Assembly (NCBI GenBank): GCA_001599595.1
Contig: BCHH01000006.1
Location: forward strand, 1,844,319 to 1,908,318
DNA length: 64,000 nt
From: Beverwykella pulmonaria
Taxonomy: Eukaryota > Ascomycota > Dothideomycetes > Pleosporales > Melanommataceae
Direction: 5' to 3'
Shown: positions 8,043-32,712 of the stretch, in pieces
How positions within the stretch are numbered: the first letter of the stretch is position 1
Layout: the number at the start of each line of letters is the position of its first letter
The notes under the pieces: generated by a model
Seen by the model: the letters and a program-made list of their open reading frames with translations, nothing else
Databases searched by the model: none
What the model was told of the DNA's origin: nothing
Translations under genes and position numbers: made by a program

Positions 8043-10010
8043 ATGGGAGTGGTTACGTGCGAACGATGGGCTGTGCTTATTGGCATCAACCAATATTCTG
8101 ACACGAATGCCAGAAAGAACCTACGAGGCTGTGTTGCCGACGTCGAGAAAACAAATACTACGCTCCGAACTTACCTTAATGTTCCAGCAGACCATATCAC
8201 GCTTCTGATAAGCTCCGATGGCCTAGATAAATGTACAGGCTCGAATACCTATCCAACAAAATCCAACGTAGTTGATGCTCTGCGGAAGGTTGCTCAACGA
8301 TCAAACCCCGGTGATTTTGTCTATATTCACTATTCGGGTCATGGCGACCGCCGCCCGACACAGTATGCCGAACTCAAGAAAGGTCAAAAACACGACGAAG
8401 TCTTGTGTACTTTGGAGGACGACCTCAGCGACGTCGAATTTGGTGACCTACTGGACGAACTAGTAAGCAGGGGGCTGGCGGTATGCGTTGTGCTGGATTG
8501 CTGCCATTCTGGAGGTGCATCTCGACTAGGCCTTGGGGCAAGCATTCGTTGGGGAAGAGCAGCAGAAGAAGCCGAGAACGGCGGACAGTATGACGGTGCT
8601 CGTACTCGCGACCTGCGGAACGCGGTGCCTATACAGAGCTGGTTCTACCGTCCACGGGGTTATAATCTGATTGCCGCCTGTCAGCCTCACGAAACTGCGG
8701 TTGAGTGGGAAGGAGCAGACGGCAAAATTTATGGGGCATTGACTTACCATTTGATTGAGACCTTTCTTTCGCTACAGTCCTCTACGGAACCAATAACCTA
8801 CGGCAGATTAATTGACGTTTTGGAGGCCAAATGTAAATTGAAGCTCAAGCAGCAGCCGATGCACTTGGGAGATCGATCTCGGGTGATATTTAGCTCAGCA
8901 ACTTCGCTAAGTGAGCGAGGAGACTTCCTGGCTAGTGTGATAAGGACGTCTGGGGCAGATGTTACGCTGAATAAAGGAGTTGCAAATGGCATCAGCATTG
9001 GAGACAAGCTCAGGATCTATCACCCATCGCAATCATTCCTAGGGCTCCTGAACCCAAAAGCGACTGCGACTACCGAGGTTATTGTGACGAGTGTGAGCAA
9101 GCTGCAATGCGAGGCAAGTTCCGTCACTGGCAGCGCCGACGACTTGCAGGGTGTGCTGGTTGGATGGTTAGCCCAGCTTTCCAGCCGCGCTAACACTGCC
9201 ATTGTCAACTTCCTGCTACATCATGAGGAAAGGGATTCATCTGCTTATGTTGCCGTCGAGAGGCTCCAGCTGGAATGTCAACTCTACGCTAGCCCGTATA
9301 TGCCGCTCGACATACGGCTTAACGCACTGGATCCTGAAGCTAACATAACGGTGGAACTCTACGAGAATAACATACTCAAATTCCGAGACAGGGACGGCAA
9401 TGACATGCCACACGTTCCAGCCGAGCATCCCAGTAGCTCTTTAAACGCGAGGAAAATGACATCGCTCCTTCAACATCTTTGCTCCTACCAACTCGCACTC
9501 AGCATTAAGAACCCGAAGACAATCAACATTTCACGCTACATGTTTGAGATTCTTCCAGACCAGGTAGAAGATGGCGACACCGACTCGCTCGCAGCATGGA
9601 GGGTCCAATTCAAAAACCTTCACAACCAGGTTCTATATATCACCATTTTCAACCTCGCATCGGCCTACGGTATCTATCAGATCTATCCGGAGGATCATGC
9701 TAGCAGTGCTGCCGTTGATCCCGGAGAAGAAATACCGTACCTTGTCATTGATATGAAGGTGCCGCCGCTCCTGAAGGAGGCCTCGACGCAACCGGGCTTT
9801 AAGATGCGAGATATAATTAAGGTGTTTATCACGACGGTGCGGGCGGACTTCAGCCACTATTGTATGCCAGATTTGCGGGGCTGGACGGAGGCAGATACGG
9901 GGGCCTTGACGAAAGTAATACAGAAGAGACATGCAAAGTTTGTTAAGCCTCAGACAGAGTCGTGGTTTGTTGATATGAAAGAGATAATCACTAGTGTCGA
10001 CTTAGAGTGA
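8043..10010 (+). CDS. Caspase-like (peptidase C14 / metacaspase-fold) protein, 655 aa
   Basis: This probable clan CD cysteine protease has a single intronless frame starting at GCATGGGAGTG. The caspase fold spans about residues 5-290: strand ERWAVLIGINQYSD, catalytic histidine in YIHYSGHG (His100) and catalytic cysteine in DCCHSGG (Cys154) with the canonical metacaspase His after Cys. The middle segment (about 310-330, NKGVANGISIGDKLRIYHP) and the beta-rich C terminus (about 495-640) parallel those of the protein at 886-2892. It is divergently placed from the TPR-CHAT remnant (its ATG is 227 bp from ATG 7815), so the two may once have shared a promoter region. The protein looks intact and is the better candidate for an active protease. 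Its natural substrate and activation route cannot be told from sequence. Confidence 0.85.
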   Translation: MGVVTCERWAVLIGINQYSDTNARKNLRGCVADVEKTNTTLRTYLNVPADHITLLISSDGLDKCTGSNTYPTKSNVVDALRKVAQRSNPGDFVYIHYSGHGDRRPTQYAELKKGQKHDEVLCTLEDDLSDVEFGDLLDELVSRGLAVCVVLDCCHSGGASRLGLGASIRWGRAAEEAENGGQYDGARTRDLRNAVPIQSWFYRPRGYNLIAACQPHETAVEWEGADGKIYGALTYHLIETFLSLQSSTEPITYGRLIDVLEAKCKLKLKQQPMHLGDRSRVIFSSATSLSERGDFLASVIRTSGADVTLNKGVANGISIGDKLRIYHPSQSFLGLLNPKATATTEVIVTSVSKLQCEASSVTGSADDLQGVLVGWLAQLSSRANTAIVNFLLHHEERDSSAYVAVERLQLECQLYASPYMPLDIRLNALDPEANITVELYENNILKFRDRDGNDMPHVPAEHPSSSLNARKMTSLLQHLCSYQLALSIKNPKTINISRYMFEILPDQVEDGDTDSLAAWRVQFKNLHNQVLYITIFNLASAYGIYQIYPEDHASSAAVDPGEEIPYLVIDMKVPPLLKEASTQPGFKMRDIIKVFITTVRADFSHYCMPDLRGWTEADTGALTKVIQKRHAKFVKPQTESWFVDMKEIITSVDLE

Positions 10011-13927: not shown

Positions 13928-15107
13928 ATGCCTCACTCCACTACCAGCTCCATCACGATTCACAAGCTTGCGCCTCCAGCAGGCTCAGCAATCGACTTCG
14001 GAGCCGAACTCCGAGGTGCCGATCTCGAGAATGTCACTGGTACGCACTCAATATCACAAAATAGTCCGGGATCATACTAAGACGTATTTAGATGCCGACT
14101 TCGACGTGATCCGCACAGCACTCTATGAGAACGATGTTATCCTTTTCAAGAACCAACAATCCCTCTCCCCACGTGCCCAATACGAGCTCACCCGCCTCTT
14201 CGATCCAACGGCAACTGGATACGGCCACGGCAAAACCCTCGACGCCAAGCGCTCCATCCTGCACCCGGATCTGAAGACCATCCCCCACCAACCTCAGGTC
14301 CAAGTAATCGGCAACGGACCTGTGGCCTCCTTCGAAGGCCTAGAGAACATCACGCTCAAGCACCCCCACCACAAGACGTTCCACAAGGAAGCCATCAGCG
14401 CCGAAGACGACCGCGAGAACACGAGGTTCTACCGGTGGCACATCGATGCGGCGCTCTACGATTTGGAACCCCCAAGGGTTACGAGCTTGATGGCTGTCAA
14501 GGTCCCGAAAACCGAGTTTCAAACCCTGCGGTATGACGATGGGTCCGACGACAAGCTTTCTGTGTCTCGCGGCAGCACTGCGTTCGTCTCCTCATTCAAG
14601 ATGTTCGATTTGCTGAGCGAGGAGGACAAGGAGTTTGCGCGAACGACAAAGGTCCAGTACGCTCCTCATCCATACATCTGGATGTCCCCCGCGCGCTCGC
14701 TCTCCGATGGCCTGGGTCTCGTCTCTGATAACCTCGAACTCGATGCTTCCTCTCTCCCGCCCATTGATGAATCCAAGATCAAGATCCTCCCCATGTGCTG
14801 GAAGAACCCCGTGACGGGCAAACTCGCACTGCAGATCCACCCCAGCGCGGTGCAGAAACTGCATCTCGCCGATGGCACTGTTATGGACAATCTCAAGGAG
14901 GTCAGGGAGATTGTGCATCGCATGCAGAGGCCGGGAATTGCGCCGGAGTTGGTGTTGGGTATCGATTGGGAAGAGGGCGACATGGCCATCTTCAATAACC
15001 ATGGTGTGCTTCATACGGTTACGGGAAGCTTCTTGCCTGAGGAGGTGAGGATTTTCCGACAGTGCAATATGGCTGCTAGCGAGCCGCCGCTAGGCCCAGA
15101 TGCTTGA
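13928..15107 (+). CDS. xanA: Alpha-ketoglutarate-dependent xanthine dioxygenase (XanA type), 375 aa
   Basis: The enzyme is a TauD/TfdA-family Fe(II)/2-oxoglutarate dioxygenase that hydroxylates xanthine to uric acid in fungal purine catabolism. Exons are 13928-14039 and 14092-15107; the 52-nt intron (GTACGC to TTTAG) joins in phase. The iron-binding triad is His154-x-Asp156 (in WHIDAALYDLEPP) and His345 (in NNHGVLHTVTG), each offset by five from the triad I recall for Aspergillus nidulans XanA. Thr-Gly after the last His and the family-specific TSLMAVKVPK stretch support the name. The length of about 375 aa is normal for XanA. The promoter has two CGG-N6-CCG dyads and a TATA box. The stop codon is followed after 2 bp by the target-site duplication of a 15.8-kb hAT transposon, so the native 3' untranslated region has been displaced. 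The coding sequence is intact. Confidence 0.9.
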
Positions 15108-15117
15108 TGTGGACAAC

Positions 15118-15137
15118 CAGCGTTGTAATCAGTACGT
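15118..15137 (+). repeat. Left terminal inverted repeat of the hAT element
   Basis: CAGCGTTGTAATCAGTACGT, directly preceded by the duplication TGGACAAC. It matches the reversed right end at 19 of 20 positions. Confidence 0.9.
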
Positions 15138-15464
15138 AGTACGGTCGTAGTTTACGGCACCGTAATAGTGCCGTACGTCGTACGTACGTAAGAGCGATTT
15201 TGTTTGACCGTACCGTACGTGAGTCTGCAGTTTTACGCGTATACGGCCTATACGGAGGATATTTTGGTGTTGTAGGAGCTTTGTTTTTGAAGTAGTCCTA
15301 TTGTAGTTAGCAGGGTATCTCACACGGCCAATTTTCATCAACAAACTAGTGATGTATCAACACCCATCCATATTGCCGTCGTCGTCGTTGCAATAGATAA
15401 CTTTGTACGCTCTACGCGTCAATCCCAGGCTTCTCAAGCCTCCTCTTCTTCTGCAAGCAGCGCG

Positions 15465-18278
15465 TTGCCTTACTACGCAGCGGCTTCAAAACGCCTCAGG
15501 AAACAGCCTGTTCCTTCATCACTAGTGTCATCAACACCCACCTCCCGCGAAGGCACGCCTTCATCTGTTGTATCAGCTCCCGCATATTCTCTATCGCACA
15601 ACTACCCAGAGGAGACTCCTAAGTCAATAAATCTTGGTATTTGTTTCCCTGTAAGGTGGGATCAGATTTAGAAGGGTTCAACGCGCCTGTTAAAGGACTG
15701 CATCAGATAGAGAGTTGTGAACAAGCGGCACTTGCAGGGCGGCTCCAAACGCTCAGAGATATATAATTACAGCGCAGATTTGTTGTACCAAGAGCCCAGT
15801 AGGTCATATAGGCGTGTTTGGCTCTGCAAGTTGTGTCATGAGCAAGGGAAGCGCAACTGTGCAAAGTACTTAGATTCTACGCATCATATTAGTACACACC
15901 TCTAGAAATCTCACCAAATTTCCATCTCCACTAGCCTCATACCTAAGCTCCTAAAACTAAACAATCCTTAGGAAGCTGCTAAAGTAGCAGCAGGAGCAAA
16001 TAACGCCTTCTCACAGTCGCCCTAGCAGGAAGATGAGCTGTTAAAGGCGTACATTAATTAGATTATTTCTCACAATATATCATTGTATCAGGCAACGTCG
16101 CCAGAAACAAGAGGGTTACTTACATGGAATCAACCTCAATTGCTCAACGCTCTACCTAGGAACCACGTAACGCTTAGAGATTATATTATAAGGGGGCTTA
16201 ACACGCGCAAGAGAGAGATTAAGGATTTACTACGCGCTGCAAGTAGTACAATTACGTTAAGCGTTGATATCTAGACTTCCCCAAATCACCTTAGTTTTCT
16301 AGGCGTGGTTGCTTATTTTGTCAGTATGTGGCCCGTGCGCGGGTGGCAAAAATCACTAAAATCTTTGCACTTCAGCCTCAACTTCTAATTCCACTACAAC
16401 GCTTAAAACTAACCTAAAATTAACTCGCAGACGCCCAAAAAAAGCACCACAATATCCTTATTGCCTTCCAAAACCTGCGGGGAGATTATACTAGCAAGAA
16501 CTAGGCTATAATTGTTGGGGAAGTCCTTGTTAAATATAATGCAGTATCTGTTGGGAGTATATAGAATGTGGGAATCACGTGTTGATGTGTAGATCACGTG
16601 TGGATCACGTGGGATGTATGGATCACGTGTGGAGGTACCAATCACGTGTGGACACGTGGGGCACTAGCCATACTCGGCTAGTGCACGCNACGGTGAGGTG
16701 GATGGTATTCCCTCTGCTGCACCGCTTCAAGATAGAGAGACACAACGATTTATTACCCCTTTTGAGAACCCCCATTGCTATTGCAATAGCCCTGTGAGAC
16801 CAACAGTATCAAAGTTTAAATTTTTTGTAGGCGACAATGCAAGCAATAACAACTCCACCTTCATTAAGGCAATTAACAGGGAACTTAGGATAGAGCTCTC
16901 TCAAGAGAATCAGATCCGCTGCGCTGGGCACATTATAAACCTCGTTGTTAAGGCAATTATATATAGAGATGGCGTCACAAAGTTTAAAGCTATGTTAGCT
17001 GACGCTCCTCCTAAAAAACAGTTCTCTATCTTCCAAACGCGCGGGGTCATTAGCCAACTACACAACCTTGTTAACGCAATTAACGTCTCTACTAAACAAC
17101 AAGAGCTCTTTATAGAGATACAAACGAAACACTATGAAGATATTATCAGCTTTGCAACTCTTACTTTACTTAAGAATAGCAGCGTGAGGTGGCACTCTGT
17201 CTATTTAATGCTCCTCCGCTGTTAGGAGTTGCGGGAAACAATTGACAAGTGGCTGCGTCAATAGAGAGCTATTGCACCTAAGAAAAAGAGGCTGGAAGTA
17301 GGAGACAATAACAACAATAAGGAGGATAGATTTAACGCAAAGCTCAACTCCTTGACGCCAGATAACTAGGATGAGGTAAAGCTCTTGGCTAACTTCCTAC
17401 AACCATTTCATAAGATAACTAAAAGACTTAAAGGCAATACCAGCAAATCAGGCTTCAGCTCTCTCTAGCAAACAATTGTTAATCTTAACGTACTTGACAA
17501 GGAGCTTCGTGAGCAAAAGGCGCGCCTTGTTCAACACCCAAACAGCTTCCTTAAGTCAGCCGTTAATCAAGGTTTTAAGAAGCTCAACAGCTATTAGACT
17601 AAAGTAATCTTTAACTCTAAGCCATCCCCATACTTAGTAGCTACTGTGTTGAACCCTCAACTTCAGATTGCCTGGTTCAAACAAACCTGGAAGAATAATA
17701 AGGATTACTATATAAGAGTTGAAAAAGACGTAAAAGCAACCTTCAAGGACTACGTCAAGCTTATTGCAGAAGAGGAAGAGAATAATAAGATCAAGGAGCA
17801 ATTACAGGAAATTCCGCACTAGAAGGTCCCCAAGGGCTCAAGCTTCAATAGTCGTTACGAGCAATCTCTTAACGTCAATCTTCACTATATAATGGGCACA
17901 AAAGGGAGGGCAAAACGCTTTAAGGCGTCAAATAAGTTGGAGGAGTACTACGCCAGCCACAACGACGATCTCTCGCGTTTCAACAACTCAGACGACAAGC
18001 TGCTCAACAACCCAATACAATAGTAGGATAAAGTGGGCCAGCAACGTTACCCAACGCTTTACCGCATGGCGTTGGACTACCTCTCTATCCCATCAACTTC
18101 ATGTGACTGCGAGAGGGCGTTTAGTAGAGCTAGGAGGACCGTTACCAACAATAGAAATCGCCTAGGTGGAGCTACAATTGAAGCACTACAGCTACAGAAA
18201 AACTGGCTACAAAACAGAGCCGTGGCAAGTCATCTCATCAACCTCAGCATATACATTTCACGCCAAGAACCTATATAA
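15465..18278 (+). pseudogene. hAT transposase pseudogene with RIP-like TAG stops
   Basis: Recognisable parts in order are a BED-like zinc finger (RVWLCKLCHEQGKRNC...H...H, about 15800-15900), the start of the RNase H core (TLSVDI*TSPNHLSFLGVV, about 16250-16320), ILIAFQNLRGDY (about 16460), FKFFVGDNASNN, IRCAGHIINLVVKA and SSVRWHSV, and the C-terminal dimerisation motif (YLSIPSTSCDCERAFSRARR, about 18080-18150). At least eight in-frame stops occur, nearly all TAG where Trp is expected (DI*TSP, DN*DEV, SL*QTI, SY*TKV, H*KVP, Q*DKV). TGG to TAG is what C-to-T changes at CpA on the opposite strand produce, the signature of RIP. The frame is also split by an LTR insertion. No functional transposase can be made. 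Confidence 0.85.
16549..16805 (+). mobile_element. Solo LTR nested in the hAT transposase
   Basis: This is a 257-bp sequence with LTR-style ends TGTTGG...CCAACA, flanked by a perfect 5-bp duplication GTATC (16544-16548 and 16806-16810). Removing it rejoins the transposase between KYNAVS and the VSKFKFFVGDN block. It holds five ATCACGTG boxes (16574, 16593, 16604, 16622, 16641) and one further CACGTG (16653). Base 16689 is an unresolved N. It is likely a copia/gypsy-type solo LTR left by recombination between the two LTRs of a full element. Confidence 0.85.
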
Positions 18279-18280
18279 AT

Positions 18281-21200
18281 CACCCATATACGGCATATAC
18301 GGCGGTCTCCGTACGTACGTATCGAGGGGGAGATTTGGATCCGTAAGTTCAATTCACCCATATACGGCATATACGGCGGTCTCCGTACGTACGTATCGAG
18401 GGGGAGATTTGGATCCGTAAGTTCAATTCACCCATATACGGCATATACGGCGGTCTCCGTACGTACGTATCGAGGGGGAGATTTGGATCCGTAAGTTCAA
18501 TTCACCCATATACGGCATATACGGCGGTCTCCGTACGTACGTATCGAGGGGGAGATTTGGATCCGTAAGTTCAATTCACCCATATACGGCATATACGGCG
18601 GTCTCCGTACGTACGTATCGAGGGGGAGATTTGGATCCGTAAGTTCAATTCACCCATATACGGCATATACGGCGGTCTCCGTACGTACGTATCGAGGGGG
18701 AGATTTGGATCCGTAAGTTCAATTCACCCATATACGGCATATACGGCGGTCTCCGTACGTACGTATCGAGGGGGAGATTTGGATCCGTAAGTTCAATTCA
18801 CCCATATACGGCATATACGGCGGTCTCCGTACGTACGTATCGAGGGGGAGATTTGGATCCGTAAGTTCAATTCACCCATATACGGCATATACGGCGGTCT
18901 CCGTACGTACGTATCGAGGGGGAGATTTGGATCCGTAAGTTCAATTCACCCATATACGGCATATACGGCGGTCTCCGTACGTACGTATCGAGGGGGAGAT
19001 TTGGATCCGTAAGTTCAATTCACCCATATACGGCATATACGGCGGTCTCCGTACGTACGTATCGAGGGGGAGATTTGGATCCGTAAGTTCAATTCACCCA
19101 TATACGGCATATACGGCGGTCTCCGTACGTACGTATCGAGGGGGAGATTTGGATCCGTAAGTTCAATTCACCCATATACGGCATATACGGCGGTCTCCGT
19201 ACGTACGTATCGAGGGGGAGATTTGGATCCGTAAGTTCAATTCACCCATATACGGCATATACGGCGGTCTCCGTACGTACGTATCGAGGGGGAGATTTGG
19301 ATCCGTAAGTTCAATTCACCCATATACGGCATATACGGCGGTCTCCGTACGTACGTATCGAGGGGGAGATTTGGATCCGTAAGTTCAATTCACCCATATA
19401 CGGCATATACGGCGGTCTCCGTACGTACGTATCGAGGGGGAGATTTGGATCCGTAAGTTCAATTCACCCATATACGGCATATACGGCGGTCTCCGTACGT
19501 ACGTATCGAGGGGGAGATTTGGATCCGTAAGTTCAATTCACCCATATACGGCATATACGGCGGTCTCCGTACGTACGTATCGAGGGGGAGATTTGGATCC
19601 GTAAGTTCAATTCACCCATATACGGCATATACGGCGGTCTCCGTACGTACGTATCGAGGGGGAGATTTGGATCCGTAAGTTCAATTCACCCATATACGGC
19701 ATATACGGCGGTCTCCGTACGTACGTATCGAGGGGGAGATTTGGATCCGTAAGTTCAATTCACCCATATACGGCATATACGGCGGTCTCCGTACGTACGT
19801 ATCGAGGGGGAGATTTGGATCCGTAAGTTCAATTCACCCATATACGGCATATACGGCGGTCTCCGTACGTACGTATCGAGGGGGAGATTTGGATCCGTAA
19901 GTTCAATTCACCCATATACGGCATATACGGCGGTCTCCGTACGTACGTATCGAGGGGGAGATTTGGATCCGTAAGTTCAATTCACCCATATACGGCATAT
20001 ACGGCGGTCTCCGTACGTACGTATCGAGGGGGAGATTTGGATCCGTAAGTTCAATTCACCCATATACGGCATATACGGCGGTCTCCGTACGTACGTATCG
20101 AGGGGGAGATTTGGATCCGTAAGTTCAATTCACCCATATACGGCATATACGGCGGTCTCCGTACGTACGTATCGAGGGGGAGATTTGGATCCGTAAGTTC
20201 AATTCACCCATATACGGCATATACGGCGGTCTCCGTACGTACGTATCGAGGGGGAGATTTGGATCCGTAAGTTCAATTCACCCATATACGGCATATACGG
20301 CGGTCTCCGTACGTACGTATCGAGGGGGAGATTTGGATCCGTAAGTTCAATTCACCCATATACGGCATATACGGCGGTCTCCGTACGTACGTATCGAGGG
20401 GGAGATTTGGATCCGTAAGTTCAATTCACCCATATACGGCATATACGGCGGTCTCCGTACGTACGTATCGAGGGGGAGATTTGGATCCGTAAGTTCAATT
20501 CACCCATATACGGCATATACGGCGGTCTCCGTACGTACGTATCGAGGGGGAGATTTGGATCCGTAAGTTCAATTCACCCATATACGGCATATACGGCGGT
20601 CTCCGTACGTACGTATCGAGGGGGAGATTTGGATCCGTAAGTTCAATTCACCCATATACGGCATATACGGCGGTCTCCGTACGTACGTATCGAGGGGGAG
20701 ATTTGGATCCGTAAGTTCAATTCACCCATATACGGCATATACGGCGGTCTCCGTACGTACGTATCGAGGGGGAGATTTGGATCCGTAAGTTCAATTCACC
20801 CATATACGGCATATACGGCGGTCTCCGTACGTACGTATCGAGGGGGAGATTTGGATCCGTAAGTTCAATTCACCCATATACGGCATATACGGCGGTCTCC
20901 GTACGTACGTATCGAGGGGGAGATTTGGATCCGTAAGTTCAATTCACCCATATACGGCATATACGGCGGTCTCCGTACGTACGTATCGAGGGGGAGATTT
21001 GGATCCGTAAGTTCAATTCACCCATATACGGCATATACGGCGGTCTCCGTACGTACGTATCGAGGGGGAGATTTGGATCCGTAAGTTCAATTCACCCATA
21101 TACGGCATATACGGCGGTCTCCGTACGTACGTATCGAGGGGGAGATTTGGATCCGTAAGTTCAATTCACCCATATACGGCATATACGGCGGTCTCCGTAC

Positions 21201-24200
21201 GTACGTATCGAGGGGGAGATTTGGATCCGTAAGTTCAATTCACCCATATACGGCATATACGGCGGTCTCCGTACGTACGTATCGAGGGGGAGATTTGGAT
21301 CCGTAAGTTCAATTCACCCATATACGGCATATACGGCGGTCTCCGTACGTACGTATCGAGGGGGAGATTTGGATCCGTAAGTTCAATTCACCCATATACG
21401 GCATATACGGCGGTCTCCGTACGTACGTATCGAGGGGGAGATTTGGATCCGTAAGTTCAATTCACCCATATACGGCATATACGGCGGTCTCCGTACGTAC
21501 GTATCGAGGGGGAGATTTGGATCCGTAAGTTCAATTCACCCATATACGGCATATACGGCGGTCTCCGTACGTACGTATCGAGGGGGAGATTTGGATCCGT
21601 AAGTTCAATTCACCCATATACGGCATATACGGCGGTCTCCGTACGTACGTATCGAGGGGGAGATTTGGATCCGTAAGTTCAATTCACCCATATACGGCAT
21701 ATACGGCGGTCTCCGTACGTACGTATCGAGGGGGAGATTTGGATCCGTAAGTTCAATTCACCCATATACGGCATATACGGCGGTCTCCGTACGTACGTAT
21801 CGAGGGGGAGATTTGGATCCGTAAGTTCAATTCACCCATATACGGCATATACGGCGGTCTCCGTACGTACGTATCGAGGGGGAGATTTGGATCCGTAAGT
21901 TCAATTCACCCATATACGGCATATACGGCGGTCTCCGTACGTACGTATCGAGGGGGAGATTTGGATCCGTAAGTTCAATTCACCCATATACGGCATATAC
22001 GGCGGTCTCCGTACGTACGTATCGAGGGGGAGATTTGGATCCGTAAGTTCAATTCACCCATATACGGCATATACGGCGGTCTCCGTACGTACGTATCGAG
22101 GGGGAGATTTGGATCCGTAAGTTCAATTCACCCATATACGGCATATACGGCGGTCTCCGTACGTACGTATCGAGGGGGAGATTTGGATCCGTAAGTTCAA
22201 TTCACCCATATACGGCATATACGGCGGTCTCCGTACGTACGTATCGAGGGGGAGATTTGGATCCGTAAGTTCAATTCACCCATATACGGCATATACGGCG
22301 GTCTCCGTACGTACGTATCGAGGGGGAGATTTGGATCCGTAAGTTCAATTCACCCATATACGGCATATACGGCGGTCTCCGTACGTACGTATCGAGGGGG
22401 AGATTTGGATCCGTAAGTTCAATTCACCCATATACGGCATATACGGCGGTCTCCGTACGTACGTATCGAGGGGGAGATTTGGATCCGTAAGTTCAATTCA
22501 CCCATATACGGCATATACGGCGGTCTCCGTACGTACGTATCGAGGGGGAGATTTGGATCCGTAAGTTCAATTCACCCATATACGGCATATACGGCGGTCT
22601 CCGTACGTACGTATCGAGGGGGAGATTTGGATCCGTAAGTTCAATTCACCCATATACGGCATATACGGCGGTCTCCGTACGTACGTATCGAGGGGGAGAT
22701 TTGGATCCGTAAGTTCAATTCACCCATATACGGCATATACGGCGGTCTCCGTACGTACGTATCGAGGGGGAGATTTGGATCCGTAAGTTCAATTCACCCA
22801 TATACGGCATATACGGCGGTCTCCGTACGTACGTATCGAGGGGGAGATTTGGATCCGTAAGTTCAATTCACCCATATACGGCATATACGGCGGTCTCCGT
22901 ACGTACGTATCGAGGGGGAGATTTGGATCCGTAAGTTCAATTCACCCATATACGGCATATACGGCGGTCTCCGTACGTACGTATCGAGGGGGAGATTTGG
23001 ATCCGTAAGTTCAATTCACCCATATACGGCATATACGGCGGTCTCCGTACGTACGTATCGAGGGGGAGATTTGGATCCGTAAGTTCAATTCACCCATATA
23101 CGGCATATACGGCGGTCTCCGTACGTACGTATCGAGGGGGAGATTTGGATCCGTAAGTTCAATTCACCCATATACGGCATATACGGCGGTCTCCGTACGT
23201 ACGTATCGAGGGGGAGATTTGGATCCGTAAGTTCAATTCACCCATATACGGCATATACGGCGGTCTCCGTACGTACGTATCGAGGGGGAGATTTGGATCC
23301 GTAAGTTCAATTCACCCATATACGGCATATACGGCGGTCTCCGTACGTACGTATCGAGGGGGAGATTTGGATCCGTAAGTTCAATTCACCCATATACGGC
23401 ATATACGGCGGTCTCCGTACGTACGTATCGAGGGGGAGATTTGGATCCGTAAGTTCAATTCACCCATATACGGCATATACGGCGGTCTCCGTACGTACGT
23501 ATCGAGGGGGAGATTTGGATCCGTAAGTTCAATTCACCCATATACGGCATATACGGCGGTCTCCGTACGTACGTATCGAGGGGGAGATTTGGATCCGTAA
23601 GTTCAATTCACCCATATACGGCATATACGGCGGTCTCCGTACGTACGTATCGAGGGGGAGATTTGGATCCGTAAGTTCAATTCACCCATATACGGCATAT
23701 ACGGCGGTCTCCGTACGTACGTATCGAGGGGGAGATTTGGATCCGTAAGTTCAATTCACCCATATACGGCATATACGGCGGTCTCCGTACGTACGTATCG
23801 AGGGGGAGATTTGGATCCGTAAGTTCAATTCACCCATATACGGCATATACGGCGGTCTCCGTACGTACGTATCGAGGGGGAGATTTGGATCCGTAAGTTC
23901 AATTCACCCATATACGGCATATACGGCGGTCTCCGTACGTACGTATCGAGGGGGAGATTTGGATCCGTAAGTTCAATTCACCCATATACGGCATATACGG
24001 CGGTCTCCGTACGTACGTATCGAGGGGGAGATTTGGATCCGTAAGTTCAATTCACCCATATACGGCATATACGGCGGTCTCCGTACGTACGTATCGAGGG
24101 GGAGATTTGGATCCGTAAGTTCAATTCACCCATATACGGCATATACGGCGGTCTCCGTACGTACGTATCGAGGGGGAGATTTGGATCCGTAAGTTCAATT

Positions 24201-27200
24201 CACCCATATACGGCATATACGGCGGTCTCCGTACGTACGTATCGAGGGGGAGATTTGGATCCGTAAGTTCAATTCACCCATATACGGCATATACGGCGGT
24301 CTCCGTACGTACGTATCGAGGGGGAGATTTGGATCCGTAAGTTCAATTCACCCATATACGGCATATACGGCGGTCTCCGTACGTACGTATCGAGGGGGAG
24401 ATTTGGATCCGTAAGTTCAATTCACCCATATACGGCATATACGGCGGTCTCCGTACGTACGTATCGAGGGGGAGATTTGGATCCGTAAGTTCAATTCACC
24501 CATATACGGCATATACGGCGGTCTCCGTACGTACGTATCGAGGGGGAGATTTGGATCCGTAAGTTCAATTCACCCATATACGGCATATACGGCGGTCTCC
24601 GTACGTACGTATCGAGGGGGAGATTTGGATCCGTAAGTTCAATTCACCCATATACGGCATATACGGCGGTCTCCGTACGTACGTATCGAGGGGGAGATTT
24701 GGATCCGTAAGTTCAATTCACCCATATACGGCATATACGGCGGTCTCCGTACGTACGTATCGAGGGGGAGATTTGGATCCGTAAGTTCAATTCACCCATA
24801 TACGGCATATACGGCGGTCTCCGTACGTACGTATCGAGGGGGAGATTTGGATCCGTAAGTTCAATTCACCCATATACGGCATATACGGCGGTCTCCGTAC
24901 GTACGTATCGAGGGGGAGATTTGGATCCGTAAGTTCAATTCACCCATATACGGCATATACGGCGGTCTCCGTACGTACGTATCGAGGGGGAGATTTGGAT
25001 CCGTAAGTTCAATTCACCCATATACGGCATATACGGCGGTCTCCGTACGTACGTATCGAGGGGGAGATTTGGATCCGTAAGTTCAATTCACCCATATACG
25101 GCATATACGGCGGTCTCCGTACGTACGTATCGAGGGGGAGATTTGGATCCGTAAGTTCAATTCACCCATATACGGCATATACGGCGGTCTCCGTACGTAC
25201 GTATCGAGGGGGAGATTTGGATCCGTAAGTTCAATTCACCCATATACGGCATATACGGCGGTCTCCGTACGTACGTATCGAGGGGGAGATTTGGATCCGT
25301 AAGTTCAATTCACCCATATACGGCATATACGGCGGTCTCCGTACGTACGTATCGAGGGGGAGATTTGGATCCGTAAGTTCAATTCACCCATATACGGCAT
25401 ATACGGCGGTCTCCGTACGTACGTATCGAGGGGGAGATTTGGATCCGTAAGTTCAATTCACCCATATACGGCATATACGGCGGTCTCCGTACGTACGTAT
25501 CGAGGGGGAGATTTGGATCCGTAAGTTCAATTCACCCATATACGGCATATACGGCGGTCTCCGTACGTACGTATCGAGGGGGAGATTTGGATCCGTAAGT
25601 TCAATTCACCCATATACGGCATATACGGCGGTCTCCGTACGTACGTATCGAGGGGGAGATTTGGATCCGTAAGTTCAATTCACCCATATACGGCATATAC
25701 GGCGGTCTCCGTACGTACGTATCGAGGGGGAGATTTGGATCCGTAAGTTCAATTCACCCATATACGGCATATACGGCGGTCTCCGTACGTACGTATCGAG
25801 GGGGAGATTTGGATCCGTAAGTTCAATTCACCCATATACGGCATATACGGCGGTCTCCGTACGTACGTATCGAGGGGGAGATTTGGATCCGTAAGTTCAA
25901 TTCACCCATATACGGCATATACGGCGGTCTCCGTACGTACGTATCGAGGGGGAGATTTGGATCCGTAAGTTCAATTCACCCATATACGGCATATACGGCG
26001 GTCTCCGTACGTACGTATCGAGGGGGAGATTTGGATCCGTAAGTTCAATTCACCCATATACGGCATATACGGCGGTCTCCGTACGTACGTATCGAGGGGG
26101 AGATTTGGATCCGTAAGTTCAATTCACCCATATACGGCATATACGGCGGTCTCCGTACGTACGTATCGAGGGGGAGATTTGGATCCGTAAGTTCAATTCA
26201 CCCATATACGGCATATACGGCGGTCTCCGTACGTACGTATCGAGGGGGAGATTTGGATCCGTAAGTTCAATTCACCCATATACGGCATATACGGCGGTCT
26301 CCGTACGTACGTATCGAGGGGGAGATTTGGATCCGTAAGTTCAATTCACCCATATACGGCATATACGGCGGTCTCCGTACGTACGTATCGAGGGGGAGAT
26401 TTGGATCCGTAAGTTCAATTCACCCATATACGGCATATACGGCGGTCTCCGTACGTACGTATCGAGGGGGAGATTTGGATCCGTAAGTTCAATTCACCCA
26501 TATACGGCATATACGGCGGTCTCCGTACGTACGTATCGAGGGGGAGATTTGGATCCGTAAGTTCAATTCACCCATATACGGCATATACGGCGGTCTCCGT
26601 ACGTACGTATCGAGGGGGAGATTTGGATCCGTAAGTTCAATTCACCCATATACGGCATATACGGCGGTCTCCGTACGTACGTATCGAGGGGGAGATTTGG
26701 ATCCGTAAGTTCAATTCACCCATATACGGCATATACGGCGGTCTCCGTACGTACGTATCGAGGGGGAGATTTGGATCCGTAAGTTCAATTCACCCATATA
26801 CGGCATATACGGCGGTCTCCGTACGTACGTATCGAGGGGGAGATTTGGATCCGTAAGTTCAATTCACCCATATACGGCATATACGGCGGTCTCCGTACGT
26901 ACGTATCGAGGGGGAGATTTGGATCCGTAAGTTCAATTCACCCATATACGGCATATACGGCGGTCTCCGTACGTACGTATCGAGGGGGAGATTTGGATCC
27001 GTAAGTTCAATTCACCCATATACGGCATATACGGCGGTCTCCGTACGTACGTATCGAGGGGGAGATTTGGATCCGTAAGTTCAATTCACCCATATACGGC
27101 ATATACGGCGGTCTCCGTACGTACGTATCGAGGGGGAGATTTGGATCCGTAAGTTCAATTCACCCATATACGGCATATACGGCGGTCTCCGTACGTACGT

Positions 27201-30200
27201 ATCGAGGGGGAGATTTGGATCCGTAAGTTCAATTCACCCATATACGGCATATACGGCGGTCTCCGTACGTACGTATCGAGGGGGAGATTTGGATCCGTAA
27301 GTTCAATTCACCCATATACGGCATATACGGCGGTCTCCGTACGTACGTATCGAGGGGGAGATTTGGATCCGTAAGTTCAATTCACCCATATACGGCATAT
27401 ACGGCGGTCTCCGTACGTACGTATCGAGGGGGAGATTTGGATCCGTAAGTTCAATTCACCCATATACGGCATATACGGCGGTCTCCGTACGTACGTATCG
27501 AGGGGGAGATTTGGATCCGTAAGTTCAATTCACCCATATACGGCATATACGGCGGTCTCCGTACGTACGTATCGAGGGGGAGATTTGGATCCGTAAGTTC
27601 AATTCACCCATATACGGCATATACGGCGGTCTCCGTACGTACGTATCGAGGGGGAGATTTGGATCCGTAAGTTCAATTCACCCATATACGGCATATACGG
27701 CGGTCTCCGTACGTACGTATCGAGGGGGAGATTTGGATCCGTAAGTTCAATTCACCCATATACGGCATATACGGCGGTCTCCGTACGTACGTATCGAGGG
27801 GGAGATTTGGATCCGTAAGTTCAATTCACCCATATACGGCATATACGGCGGTCTCCGTACGTACGTATCGAGGGGGAGATTTGGATCCGTAAGTTCAATT
27901 CACCCATATACGGCATATACGGCGGTCTCCGTACGTACGTATCGAGGGGGAGATTTGGATCCGTAAGTTCAATTCACCCATATACGGCATATACGGCGGT
28001 CTCCGTACGTACGTATCGAGGGGGAGATTTGGATCCGTAAGTTCAATTCACCCATATACGGCATATACGGCGGTCTCCGTACGTACGTATCGAGGGGGAG
28101 ATTTGGATCCGTAAGTTCAATTCACCCATATACGGCATATACGGCGGTCTCCGTACGTACGTATCGAGGGGGAGATTTGGATCCGTAAGTTCAATTCACC
28201 CATATACGGCATATACGGCGGTCTCCGTACGTACGTATCGAGGGGGAGATTTGGATCCGTAAGTTCAATTCACCCATATACGGCATATACGGCGGTCTCC
28301 GTACGTACGTATCGAGGGGGAGATTTGGATCCGTAAGTTCAATTCACCCATATACGGCATATACGGCGGTCTCCGTACGTACGTATCGAGGGGGAGATTT
28401 GGATCCGTAAGTTCAATTCACCCATATACGGCATATACGGCGGTCTCCGTACGTACGTATCGAGGGGGAGATTTGGATCCGTAAGTTCAATTCACCCATA
28501 TACGGCATATACGGCGGTCTCCGTACGTACGTATCGAGGGGGAGATTTGGATCCGTAAGTTCAATTCACCCATATACGGCATATACGGCGGTCTCCGTAC
28601 GTACGTATCGAGGGGGAGATTTGGATCCGTAAGTTCAATTCACCCATATACGGCATATACGGCGGTCTCCGTACGTACGTATCGAGGGGGAGATTTGGAT
28701 CCGTAAGTTCAATTCACCCATATACGGCATATACGGCGGTCTCCGTACGTACGTATCGAGGGGGAGATTTGGATCCGTAAGTTCAATTCACCCATATACG
28801 GCATATACGGCGGTCTCCGTACGTACGTATCGAGGGGGAGATTTGGATCCGTAAGTTCAATTCACCCATATACGGCATATACGGCGGTCTCCGTACGTAC
28901 GTATCGAGGGGGAGATTTGGATCCGTAAGTTCAATTCACCCATATACGGCATATACGGCGGTCTCCGTACGTACGTATCGAGGGGGAGATTTGGATCCGT
29001 AAGTTCAATTCACCCATATACGGCATATACGGCGGTCTCCGTACGTACGTATCGAGGGGGAGATTTGGATCCGTAAGTTCAATTCACCCATATACGGCAT
29101 ATACGGCGGTCTCCGTACGTACGTATCGAGGGGGAGATTTGGATCCGTAAGTTCAATTCACCCATATACGGCATATACGGCGGTCTCCGTACGTACGTAT
29201 CGAGGGGGAGATTTGGATCCGTAAGTTCAATTCACCCATATACGGCATATACGGCGGTCTCCGTACGTACGTATCGAGGGGGAGATTTGGATCCGTAAGT
29301 TCAATTCACCCATATACGGCATATACGGCGGTCTCCGTACGTACGTATCGAGGGGGAGATTTGGATCCGTAAGTTCAATTCACCCATATACGGCATATAC
29401 GGCGGTCTCCGTACGTACGTATCGAGGGGGAGATTTGGATCCGTAAGTTCAATTCACCCATATACGGCATATACGGCGGTCTCCGTACGTACGTATCGAG
29501 GGGGAGATTTGGATCCGTAAGTTCAATTCACCCATATACGGCATATACGGCGGTCTCCGTACGTACGTATCGAGGGGGAGATTTGGATCCGTAAGTTCAA
29601 TTCACCCATATACGGCATATACGGCGGTCTCCGTACGTACGTATCGAGGGGGAGATTTGGATCCGTAAGTTCAATTCACCCATATACGGCATATACGGCG
29701 GTCTCCGTACGTACGTATCGAGGGGGAGATTTGGATCCGTAAGTTCAATTCACCCATATACGGCATATACGGCGGTCTCCGTACGTACGTATCGAGGGGG
29801 AGATTTGGATCCGTAAGTTCAATTCACCCATATACGGCATATACGGCGGTCTCCGTACGTACGTATCGAGGGGGAGATTTGGATCCGTAAGTTCAATTCA
29901 CCCATATACGGCATATACGGCGGTCTCCGTACGTACGTATCGAGGGGGAGATTTGGATCCGTAAGTTCAATTCACCCATATACGGCATATACGGCGGTCT
30001 CCGTACGTACGTATCGAGGGGGAGATTTGGATCCGTAAGTTCAATTCACCCATATACGGCATATACGGCGGTCTCCGTACGTACGTATCGAGGGGGAGAT
30101 TTGGATCCGTAAGTTCAATTCACCCATATACGGCATATACGGCGGTCTCCGTACGTACGTATCGAGGGGGAGATTTGGATCCGTAAGTTCAATTCACCCA

Positions 30201-30791
30201 TATACGGCATATACGGCGGTCTCCGTACGTACGTATCGAGGGGGAGATTTGGATCCGTAAGTTCAATTCACCCATATACGGCATATACGGCGGTCTCCGT
30301 ACGTACGTATCGAGGGGGAGATTTGGATCCGTAAGTTCAATTCACCCATATACGGCATATACGGCGGTCTCCGTACGTACGTATCGAGGGGGAGATTTGG
30401 ATCCGTAAGTTCAATTCACCCATATACGGCATATACGGCGGTCTCCGTACGTACGTATCGAGGGGGAGATTTGGATCCGTAAGTTCAATTCACCCATATA
30501 CGGCATATACGGCGGTCTCCGTACGTACGTATCGAGGGGGAGATTTGGATCCGTAAGTTCAATTCACCCATATACGGCATATACGGCGGTCTCCGTACGT
30601 ACGTATCGAGGGGGAGATTTGGATCCGTAAGTTCAATTCACCCATATACGGCATATACGGCGGTCTCCGTACGTACGTATCGAGGGGGAGATTTGGATCC
30701 GTAAGTTCAATTCACCCATATACGGCATATACGGCGGTCTCCGTACGTACGTATCGAGGGGGAGATTTGGATCCGTAAGTTCAATTCACCC
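18281..30791 (+). repeat. Satellite array: 169 tandem copies of a 74-bp unit
   Basis: The unit begins CACCCATATACGGCATATAC, contains CGTACGTACGTATCG and a GGATCC site, and ends GTAAGTTCAATT. Copies start at 18281+74n. The landmark GGCGGTCTCC is at 18301 in the first copy and 30733 in the last, exactly 168 periods apart, and it stays in phase at intermediate points checked (23999, 27033). There are thus 169 complete copies (12,506 bp) plus five bases, with no net length change, and no base difference was seen by eye. Each unit holds two TATACGGC-type words and the palindrome TACGTACGTA, also found at the element's ends, so the unit probably arose from subterminal transposase-binding sequence. 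It has no coding potential. Confidence 0.95.
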
Positions 30792-30862
30792 TACAGTTTC
30801 CGTACGTACGTACAGCGTAATTGACCCGTACAGGTTCTTCAACTTCTACGGATGTACGGTAT

Positions 30863-30882
30863 ACGTACGGATTACAACGCTG
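30863..30882 (-). repeat. Right terminal inverted repeat of the hAT element
   Basis: It reads CAGCGTTGTAATCCGTACGT on the minus strand and is directly followed on the plus strand by the duplication TGGACAAC. The 70 bp before it (from 30792) carry further GTACGTACGTAC and GTACGGTATACGTACGG words, the right subterminal region. Confidence 0.9.
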
Positions 30883-31147
30883 TGGACAACAGCACTTTGA
30901 GCGTGGCGTTTTGGGATAGATAGTAGACTCTGGTATCATCGGATGGTAGATTTTAGATTAGGGCATCTATTTCGTTGTACATATTAAATTTCGAAAATAA
31001 ACATTGATCAACTTTTCGAAAAGCTTGTCCGCTTTCGCTCCTAGCGTGAATGCAAATCAGAGTATTACTGCTATATAGATACGACGAACGCCAAACCTCC
31101 TCCTCCATGTTGATCCGTGCCCATGCGAGCGTATTCAAACTCAAATA

Positions 31148-32712
31148 TCACTCCTCCTCTTCCTTCCCGCCGAAAATGCCTCCTACCAATCCCCCAACGC
31201 CCTTATGCAGACCTCCAAGCGTACTTCCCACACCGCCGATAAGATCACCTCGTCCCAACTTCCCAACACCTTCTCCTAGACCACCAGTAATACCTCCGAC
31301 CGCATTGCCAGCACCCTACCGCAAAGTTAGTAATCGGAAAAGACGAAAACTTTCCGAGGTATTGTAAACGTACCCTTCCAACACCCCCAACAATATCGCC
31401 CAGCGGCCCGCCAACTGTGTTTCCTACGCCACCAACAGCATCACTGACCGTAGTACCGACGCCCTACTCAACATTAGCACGACCGCAAACAAAATAGAGA
31501 GAGTTTGTAAAACTCGCCTTTCCCACTCCACCCACGGTATTCCCAACGCCCGAACTCAGACCCCCCACAGTGCCCCTAACATCGCCCTTCCCAAGAGCAC
31601 CAGTCGTCTTGCTCACCGTACCTTGTAATCCCTTCGTCGCCGAGCCCGCCGTGTAGTACAAGTTATCCGTCGCCCCGGTCACCGTGTTGCCCACATTATC
31701 AGTGACATGCTTCACTGGCTTTCCGACACCACCCGGCAGCTTGTCCAGCCCCTTCCCAGCAAGCCCAGTGACGCCGTTAACCCCAGCGTTTATGCCCGAT
31801 GTCGCTGAGTCTGTGACCGTATTCAGCGTTCCCGTTGTGTATCCAACCGTTTTATTCGTGGCTCCAGTGATGGCGTTGGCGCCTTGCCCGATCACCCCCG
31901 GTTTCTTTGCCTGGGTGGTCGCTGGAGCGGCCTTTTGGACTTCAGCGGGCGTGGGTGTTGTGCCATCTGGGTTTGTAATTTTGGCGGGGGTGGCTTTCTT
32001 GGTGGGCGTTGCTTTTGCGAGGGTGGTTGTGCTCAGTTTGGCGGGTGTGGAGGGGGCGGAGGCGGTGGCTGCAGTGGTGGCTTTTGATACTGGAGTGGCT
32101 TTTGATGCTGGGGTGGCTTTTGATGCTGGGATGGCTTTGGTTCGAGAGACGGGGAGTGTCTTCTGTGTGCCGAGGGGTGTGCGCGCAGCTGCGGGCTTTG
32201 AGGCGGCGCTGACAGTTGCTTTGGTTGCGGTTGCCGGTGAGGCTTTACTAGCAGCGGCGGGCGTGGTCTTGATCGTAGATGCTGGTGTGGTCTTACTCGC
32301 TGCCACTGGTGTTTTCTTTACAGTAGATGTGCTCGGTGTTGTTGGTGCAGCTTTCGTCACCGTAGGGAGTGTCTTTTGGGTGCCAAGCGGGGTTCGCGCC
32401 AGCTTTGGTGGTGCCGTTTTAACTTGTGTTCCACTGGATTTTGTGGCTGTGGGCATTGATGCAGCCGGGGTGGCTTTCTTGACTGGGGAAGTCTTCGGGG
32501 CAGTAGTTGTCTTTGCTGGGGTGGCGGCGGCGGGCTTCTTTGCCTCTTTTTCGATGTTGCTTATGCCCGCTGGAGAAGAGTGTCAGCCATCTGCCAGTAT
32601 TATATAGAATTTCAAATCGAATGTGGAAATGTGCTTGTCCTTGAAACAGGGCGCTGGATGACTTACACTGAAGTGCAGCCGCCTGGCCTTTAAGACTATT
32701 GACTGCGGACAT
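31148..32712 (-). CDS. Lys/Ala/Thr-rich protein with C-terminal glycine-repeat (LEA-like) region, 451 aa
   Basis: Four exons: 32712-32667, 32569-31518, 31463-31374, 31315-31148. Introns are 97, 54 and 58 nt; the first and third have GTAAGT and GTACGT donors, while the second starts GCGAGT and would be a GC-AG intron with branch TGCTAAT. All phases agree. After a short start (MSAVNSLKGQAAALQ) the protein has about 190 residues of basic low complexity (repeated TP.ASKATP and RTPLGTQKTLP), then about 220 residues built from repeats of the kind GVGNTVGGVG and GKGLDKLPGGVGK, ending in acidic KEEEE. Such amphipathic Gly/Val/Thr repeats resemble LEA-like or glycine-rich stress proteins of fungi; no enzyme domain or signal peptide is visible. 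Function unknown. Confidence 0.65.

Follow-up and report, generated by a model that had tools for sequence, protein, structure and literature searches.

The locus described here raises the question of how a DNA transposon of the hAT superfamily comes to enclose a long, homogeneous tandem array: whether the array was brought in by the transposon, grew within it at its present site, or owes its length to the assembly. To our knowledge, the emergence of a satellite's first tandem array is rarely observed, because satellites are for the most part old and already present at many loci. The window, by which we mean the whole 64,000-nt stretch of DNA analysed, contains a hAT element that spans 15118-30882 (15,765 bp) and has the following features, in which RIP stands for repeat-induced point mutation.

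13968-15107, plus strand: TauD/TfdA dioxygenase-type gene (open reading frame; PF02668, 1.5e-30)
15110-15117, no strand: left target-site duplication TGGACAAC, an exact 8-mer seen again at 30883
15118-15138, plus strand: left terminal inverted repeat CAGCGTTGTAATCAGTACGTA, with 20/21 matches to the right end; its 13-base terminus is common to 11 other full-length copies
15118-15317, plus strand: left subterminal zone, dense in CCGTA/CGTAC and nearly free of RIP in ten aligned copies (CCGTA counted in sibling C3d)
15291-18275, plus strand: RIP-damaged hAT transposase relic, with PF05699 and Hermes matches and an N-terminal limit judged by eye
16549-16805, no strand: nested solo-LTR-like insert, TGTTGG...CCAACA, 257 bp, with the 5-bp duplication GTATC at 16544-16548 and 16806-16810
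18280-18285, plus strand: first TCACCC direct repeat bounding the unit, the same repeat being present in single-unit siblings
18280-30785, plus strand: 169 identical 74-bp units (TRF and unit-by-unit string comparison)
30786-30791, plus strand: closing TCACCC copy, which lies 74 bp beyond the first TCACCC in single-unit siblings
30786-30882, plus strand: right subterminal zone together with the right terminal inverted repeat; 9 of the 11 other copies share the 171-bp right end, which takes in one unit, at 100% identity
30883-30890, no strand: right target-site duplication TGGACAAC, an exact copy of the left 8-mer

The earlier note on this DNA had described a hAT element bounded by perfect 8-bp duplications and by inverted repeats matching at 19 of 20 positions. 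The duplications are confirmed, and the 8-mer occurs nowhere else in the window on either strand; the ends match as described, although our count is 20 of 21. The stop codon of the dioxygenase-type gene lies 10 bp upstream of the element start. The transposase relic that was reported alongside is likewise real, as a read-through of 16833-18275, which crosses 8 TAG stops, matches Pfam PF05699 (Dimer_Tnp_hAT, E 2.5e-19) and the PDB Hermes entry 6dww (2.7e-9), the Hermes structures matching residues 395-460. Thus the 8-bp target duplication, the short terminal inverted repeats and the C-terminal dimerisation domain, the last on the read-through, are all those of a hAT element. An N-terminal BED zinc finger is common in the hAT superfamily; a zf-BED match (PF02892) in sibling L013 is weak (E 0.036, 14.5 bits, under the Pfam cut-off of 20.6), and two short stop-free pieces, one from the window and one from a sibling, matched no Pfam family. 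The element shares with Hermes and its relatives the target duplication, the short inverted repeats, the dimerisation domain and motif-rich subterminal zones, but differs from Hermes-type hATs in being enlarged about fivefold by its array, in carrying the nested insert, and in its damage by RIP. That 257-bp insert, missing from the seven siblings of 3,071 bp, looks like a solo LTR, a reading that follows its form (TG...CA ends, GTATC duplication). The intact transposase of an active hAT was not found: among 96 transposase matches genome-wide (best 89 of 118 candidates scored, introns ignored), all 22 with at least 450 residues aligned carry six or more stops, and the 13 that are stop-free are each shorter than 85 residues. 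The window copy is a fossil, with no sign of movement, protein coding or function.

The array lies between the transposase relic and the right end, and TRF reports it as a single array (18280-30791, period 74, 169.1 copies, 100% matches). In the assembly all 169 units are one identical string, 12,506 bp in length without the closing TCACCC; since this last TCACCC closes the array, its full length is 169 x 74 bp + 6 bp. The earlier claim of 169 in-phase 74-bp units inside one duplication therefore holds in the assembly, and hAT ends enclosing a long homogeneous array are supported. The same note had named the presence of this array outside any hAT ends as evidence that would tell against its reading. 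Genome-wide, 168 unit-to-unit junctions were counted, always in the forward orientation (control 0), and the window by itself contains 168; the two counts being equal, the assembly contains no other such array. With a longest open stretch of 73 codons, the array was rejected as coding sequence, and an RNA-family identity was likewise rejected, as no Rfam family reached its gathering score in 14000-32500. As to terminology, the head-to-tail homogeneity of 169 identical units in the assembly is that of a satellite, whereas all 168 junctions fall in the window and arrays at several loci are not seen. The label "satellite" is thus generous for one locus with a 74-bp unit, and "large minisatellite" or "incipient satellite" would be closer.

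The other members of the family show what the element looked like with one unit. A search of the genome (45,617,988 bases in 31 contigs) for the terminus CAGCGTTGTAATC gave 13 matches per strand, against 0 and 1 in the backwards control, and 24 of these 26 termini form pairs that delimit 12 full-length copies, that of the window among them; of the two left unpaired, one belongs to a partial copy beside an N run (C8) and the other, on C11, runs on into unrelated sequence. A length of exactly 3,071 bp is shared by seven of the 12 (C2, three of the four C3 copies, C4a, C8 and C18). Target duplications are exact at 11 of the 12, window included, and off by one base at C5. The earlier note had proposed to compare array length among copies found by their terminal sequence, and this comparison yields one unit at the right end in all 11 other full-length copies, with an N within the unit in C4a and a substitution in C18; over the 171-bp right end, C4a differs by one N and C18 by one substitution. 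A search with this 171-bp end scored the best 39 of 46 candidates and gave at least 39 matches, among which the window's own right end does not figure: the ends of the 11 other full-length copies, that of the partial C8 copy, and those of 27 more distant relatives (73-85% identity among the matches listed). Twenty of these 27 relatives were fetched and seven left out, and in none of the 20 did alignment, TRF or unit-core counts reveal a tandem array at the right end. Each gave one right-end alignment, L038 having a second, inverted and weaker one elsewhere; the 74-bp period was absent from all 20 by TRF; the unit core matched once in 19 and not in L042; and a looser second core matched once in 17, twice in L033 and not in L040 or L041; the alignment of L041 covers only the final part of the unit. 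Ten of the 20 have a left end approximately 580-605 bp from the right end, and in this they resemble MITEs of the same family.

These copies bear on whether the array could have been cargo. The entire array sits inside perfect target duplications, as would be the case had it arisen in an older hAT copy and had the whole 15.8-kb element then transposed here, the transposon acting as the vehicle of the satellite. As hAT elements move by cut and paste, an array would not be left behind at the donor site, and such a history is therefore compatible with array-less siblings. However, the assembly is without a second array, the siblings are all single-unit, the 22 long transposase matches all carry six or more stops (best 89 of 118 candidates, introns ignored), and long hAT elements generally move less well. 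Arrival of the array as cargo is thus very unlikely in our judgement, and the proposal in the earlier note that the hAT served as a carrier spreading the satellite finds no support in the 11 single-unit copies, the 20 array-less relatives and the 22 stop-bearing matches. The array is not a family-borne satellite, as a single unit is all that any of the 11 other full-length copies contains and the 20 fetched relatives are all without an array at that end. It most likely grew in place, because siblings never have more than one unit and no long stop-free transposase match was found.

We propose, with moderate confidence, a model in which one subterminal 74-bp segment of one RIP-damaged hAT copy was tandemly amplified, most likely after insertion. 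In sibling C3d the unit occupies element position 2901-2974 of 3071, with TCACCC on both sides, 74 bp apart, and the start and end of the array coincide with these direct repeats, which already flank the unit in single-unit siblings. In C3d, six or more bases match at 0.49% of breakpoints when the offset is 74, and at 0.21% of those sampled over offsets of 30-300. The 6-bp TCACCC repeat bounding the array therefore points to a microhomology-bounded duplication. Upon a slip or template switch between the TCACCC repeats 74 bp apart, the segment would be duplicated, and unequal exchange, replication slippage or rolling-circle copying could then take two units to many (169 in the assembly). Folding of two units, on either strand, was no better than that of shuffles (z -1.04 and -0.06), and slippage driven by a hairpin was rejected, as no unusual hairpin appeared. 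The zero variants among the units suggest, as a last step, that the event was recent, too recent for the RIP seen in the element's body to have acted on the array, or beyond the reach of that RIP.

The dating of this event depends in part on RIP in the family, which was followed in an alignment of 10 of the 12 copies, with the window array cut to one unit and with C4b and C11b left out for their large inserts. Transitions make up 434 of the 437 variable columns, with 301 at CpA/TpG and 116 at CpG; this pattern is the mark of RIP, and the family is a RIP-affected repeat. Together with the gene content, the RIP pattern points to a fungal genome. In the window copy, A is found in 106 of 219 G/A columns and T in 22 of 215 C/T columns, and as the A state is frequent and the T state rare, it was hit by RIP mostly on one strand. 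The array presents 845 CpA/TpG sites (5 per unit), none of them RIP-mutated; however, the single unit is also spared by RIP in the aligned siblings, which makes the RIP-free array a weaker clock. At the family transversion rate 1.2 changes would be expected in the array, and 8.1 if other non-CpA/CpG transitions are included, which may themselves also stem from RIP; none is observed. Zero variants imply that the expansion, or the last homogenisation, was recent, although it is dated only weakly.

Perfect identity of 169 units over 12.5 kb would also be expected from an assembler or finisher, and the assembly may have mis-sized the exact 12.5-kb array. The true locus could be a duplication of a few units, unrolled by the assembler, a gap filler or a finisher to fill a sized gap. 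Of 55 loci fetched by place, 17 contain N runs or ambiguous single bases; 835 N lie beside one hAT copy and 17,342 N inside another, and in hAT copy C4b a 47-bp repeat runs directly into the 17,342-N run. Of ten contigs examined at each side, six begin with N for 600 bp and none ends so, and exact TTAGGGx3 appeared as a single tract on C25 and a single match on C3, weak beside the 8 matches of the backwards control. In the L. maculans JN3 assembly, gap filling is reported to have made false duplicates with a median of 5.5 kb (PMC6219404). However, some of the long N runs may be sequence that the operators withheld and not gaps, and an ordinary assembly graph should not form a false loop on the 6 bp of junction homology that the single-unit element offers. 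With homology this short, at least one tandem junction is likely to be real, and the junction seen here is thus probably real; that only a few units truly exist is a real though minor possibility.

The array also contains a large number of subterminal motifs. Counted on both strands of sibling C3d, CCGTA is present 8 times within the left 200 bp and 9 times within the right 171 bp but is absent from the 2,700-bp body; each unit has 4, giving 676 in the array, and the density in the window outside the element is 1.12 per kb. By their position, and by comparison with other hAT elements, these are likely transposase-binding zones; Ac-type subterminal repeats are the comparison system for motif-rich subterminal zones. 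The concentration of CCGTA in the ends of C3d and its 676 copies in the array would be in keeping with a selected decoy, a CCGTA-rich array favoured because it soaks up transposase or seeds silencing. However, that CCGTA is a binding site is something we infer, no intact long transposase match of the family was found that could be titrated (best 89 of 118 candidates), and a single locus in a single genome offers no evidence of selection; we regard such a decoy as extremely unlikely. A broader proposal would be that the motif-dense subterminal zones of hAT elements are ready-made satellite seeds, and that one such seed has here been caught only a very few sexual generations after it arose, given 845 CpA/TpG sites free of RIP in the array and 347 of 523 hit in the body of the family; we consider this unlikely, but if true, RIP would be usable as a clock for satellite birth in fungi.

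That transposons give birth to satellites is already established, as far as the accessible portions of two sources describe it, by Tetris (PMC4079207) and by the cases in a review (PMC9659126). In the former, the internal repeat of the Drosophila virilis Tetris foldback transposon (TIR-220) is reported to have seeded longer, more homogeneous arrays of kb size, and fiber-FISH to have shown Tetris insertions with expanded internal arrays, with 8-9 bp target duplications (PMC4079207). In both Tetris and the present element, a repeat inside DNA-transposon ends seeds the array; unlike here, Tetris copies, as that account has it, already hold a variable number of approximately 220-bp repeats, whereas here siblings with one 74-bp unit stand beside one copy with 169. 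The review lists Xenopus Xstir and miDNA4 as MITE-derived tandem repeats, from or within a DNA transposon (PMC9659126), and in the text available these are described as repeat families, whereas the present case is one expanded copy at one site. A hAT carrying histone H3 in Pseudocercospora fijiensis was, according to the sections available, inactivated by RIP, its captured gene having spread to hundreds of dispersed copies (PMC6710886). Both hAT families are thus RIP-inactivated in a filamentous fungus, but here the element's own end was amplified, in tandem and at one site. No title on such an array within a fungal hAT was found in our literature search, which does not prove absence. What is distinctive here is the clean before-and-after, 11 siblings with one unit and one with 169 in the assembly: 11 sister copies elsewhere in the genome preserve the ancestral single-unit state, the array has exact ends, and the seed's direct repeat can be seen. 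If the copy number is confirmed, the locus would provide a simple test case for array length among isolates and for RIP on a young short-unit array.

A further observation concerns RIP at the ends of the family. The sparing of the ends could be explained by an edge effect of RIP, by protection from a bound protein, or by their own special sequence. The literature search found no title about repeat ends being spared by RIP, and RIP with tandem duplications surfaced solely as a reference title in one paper, in the part of it available. None of the 38 CpA-type sites within the first 200 and last 214 bp carries a mutation in the ten aligned copies, whereas 347 of 523 do so in the body (Fisher p 1.4e-17, with the border chosen after the data were seen). 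CpG sites in the same ten copies are mutated at 3 of 78 in the ends and at 156 of 246 in the body.

Repeat-induced point mutation (RIP) has spared roughly the outermost 200 bp at either end of the element in the ten aligned full-length copies of the hAT family: none of 38 CpA-type sites there was mutated, as against 347 of 523 in the body. In the window copy the spared ends lie at the following positions, and the corresponding ends of the nine aligned siblings, which carry one 74-bp unit each, are spared too:

15118-15317, first RIP-spared end of the window copy
30786-30882, second RIP-spared end of the window copy

These spared zones roughly coincide with the zones of the hAT ends that are rich in CCGTA, a candidate transposase-binding site. 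Within the window copy, RIP is strongly one-stranded: in the alignment of copies it carries the A state at 106 of 219 G/A columns and the T state at 22 of 215 C/T columns.

The transposase relic of the window copy is itself interrupted:

16544-16810, 257-bp insert resembling a solo LTR, flanked by the 5-bp duplication GTATC

No insert of any kind was found in the seven siblings of 3,071 bp. Other extra DNA is present in copies C3c (1,270 bp) and C5 (696 bp). At L015:2460-2716, on contig C4, another full-length copy has a further insert nested in it, whose 47-bp tandem repeat continues up to a run of 17,342 N; this may be a second array within a copy of this hAT family.

A partial end of the same family on contig C8 (L019:1-4600) breaks off inside the 74-bp unit at a run of 835 N, and 1,552 bp of this locus, made up of the flank and the end, appear again without any difference after another 2,387 bp. 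The assembly may be wrong here, or the segment may have been duplicated locally. Scattered single Ns also occur in three fetched loci, with 3 in L018, 7 in L021 and 12, all inside about 145 bp, in L034; these may stem from mixed reads of different repeat copies. Elsewhere in the window, two caspase-domain (Peptidase C14) genes fall within about 9 kb:

886-2892, caspase-domain gene
8043-10010, caspase-domain gene
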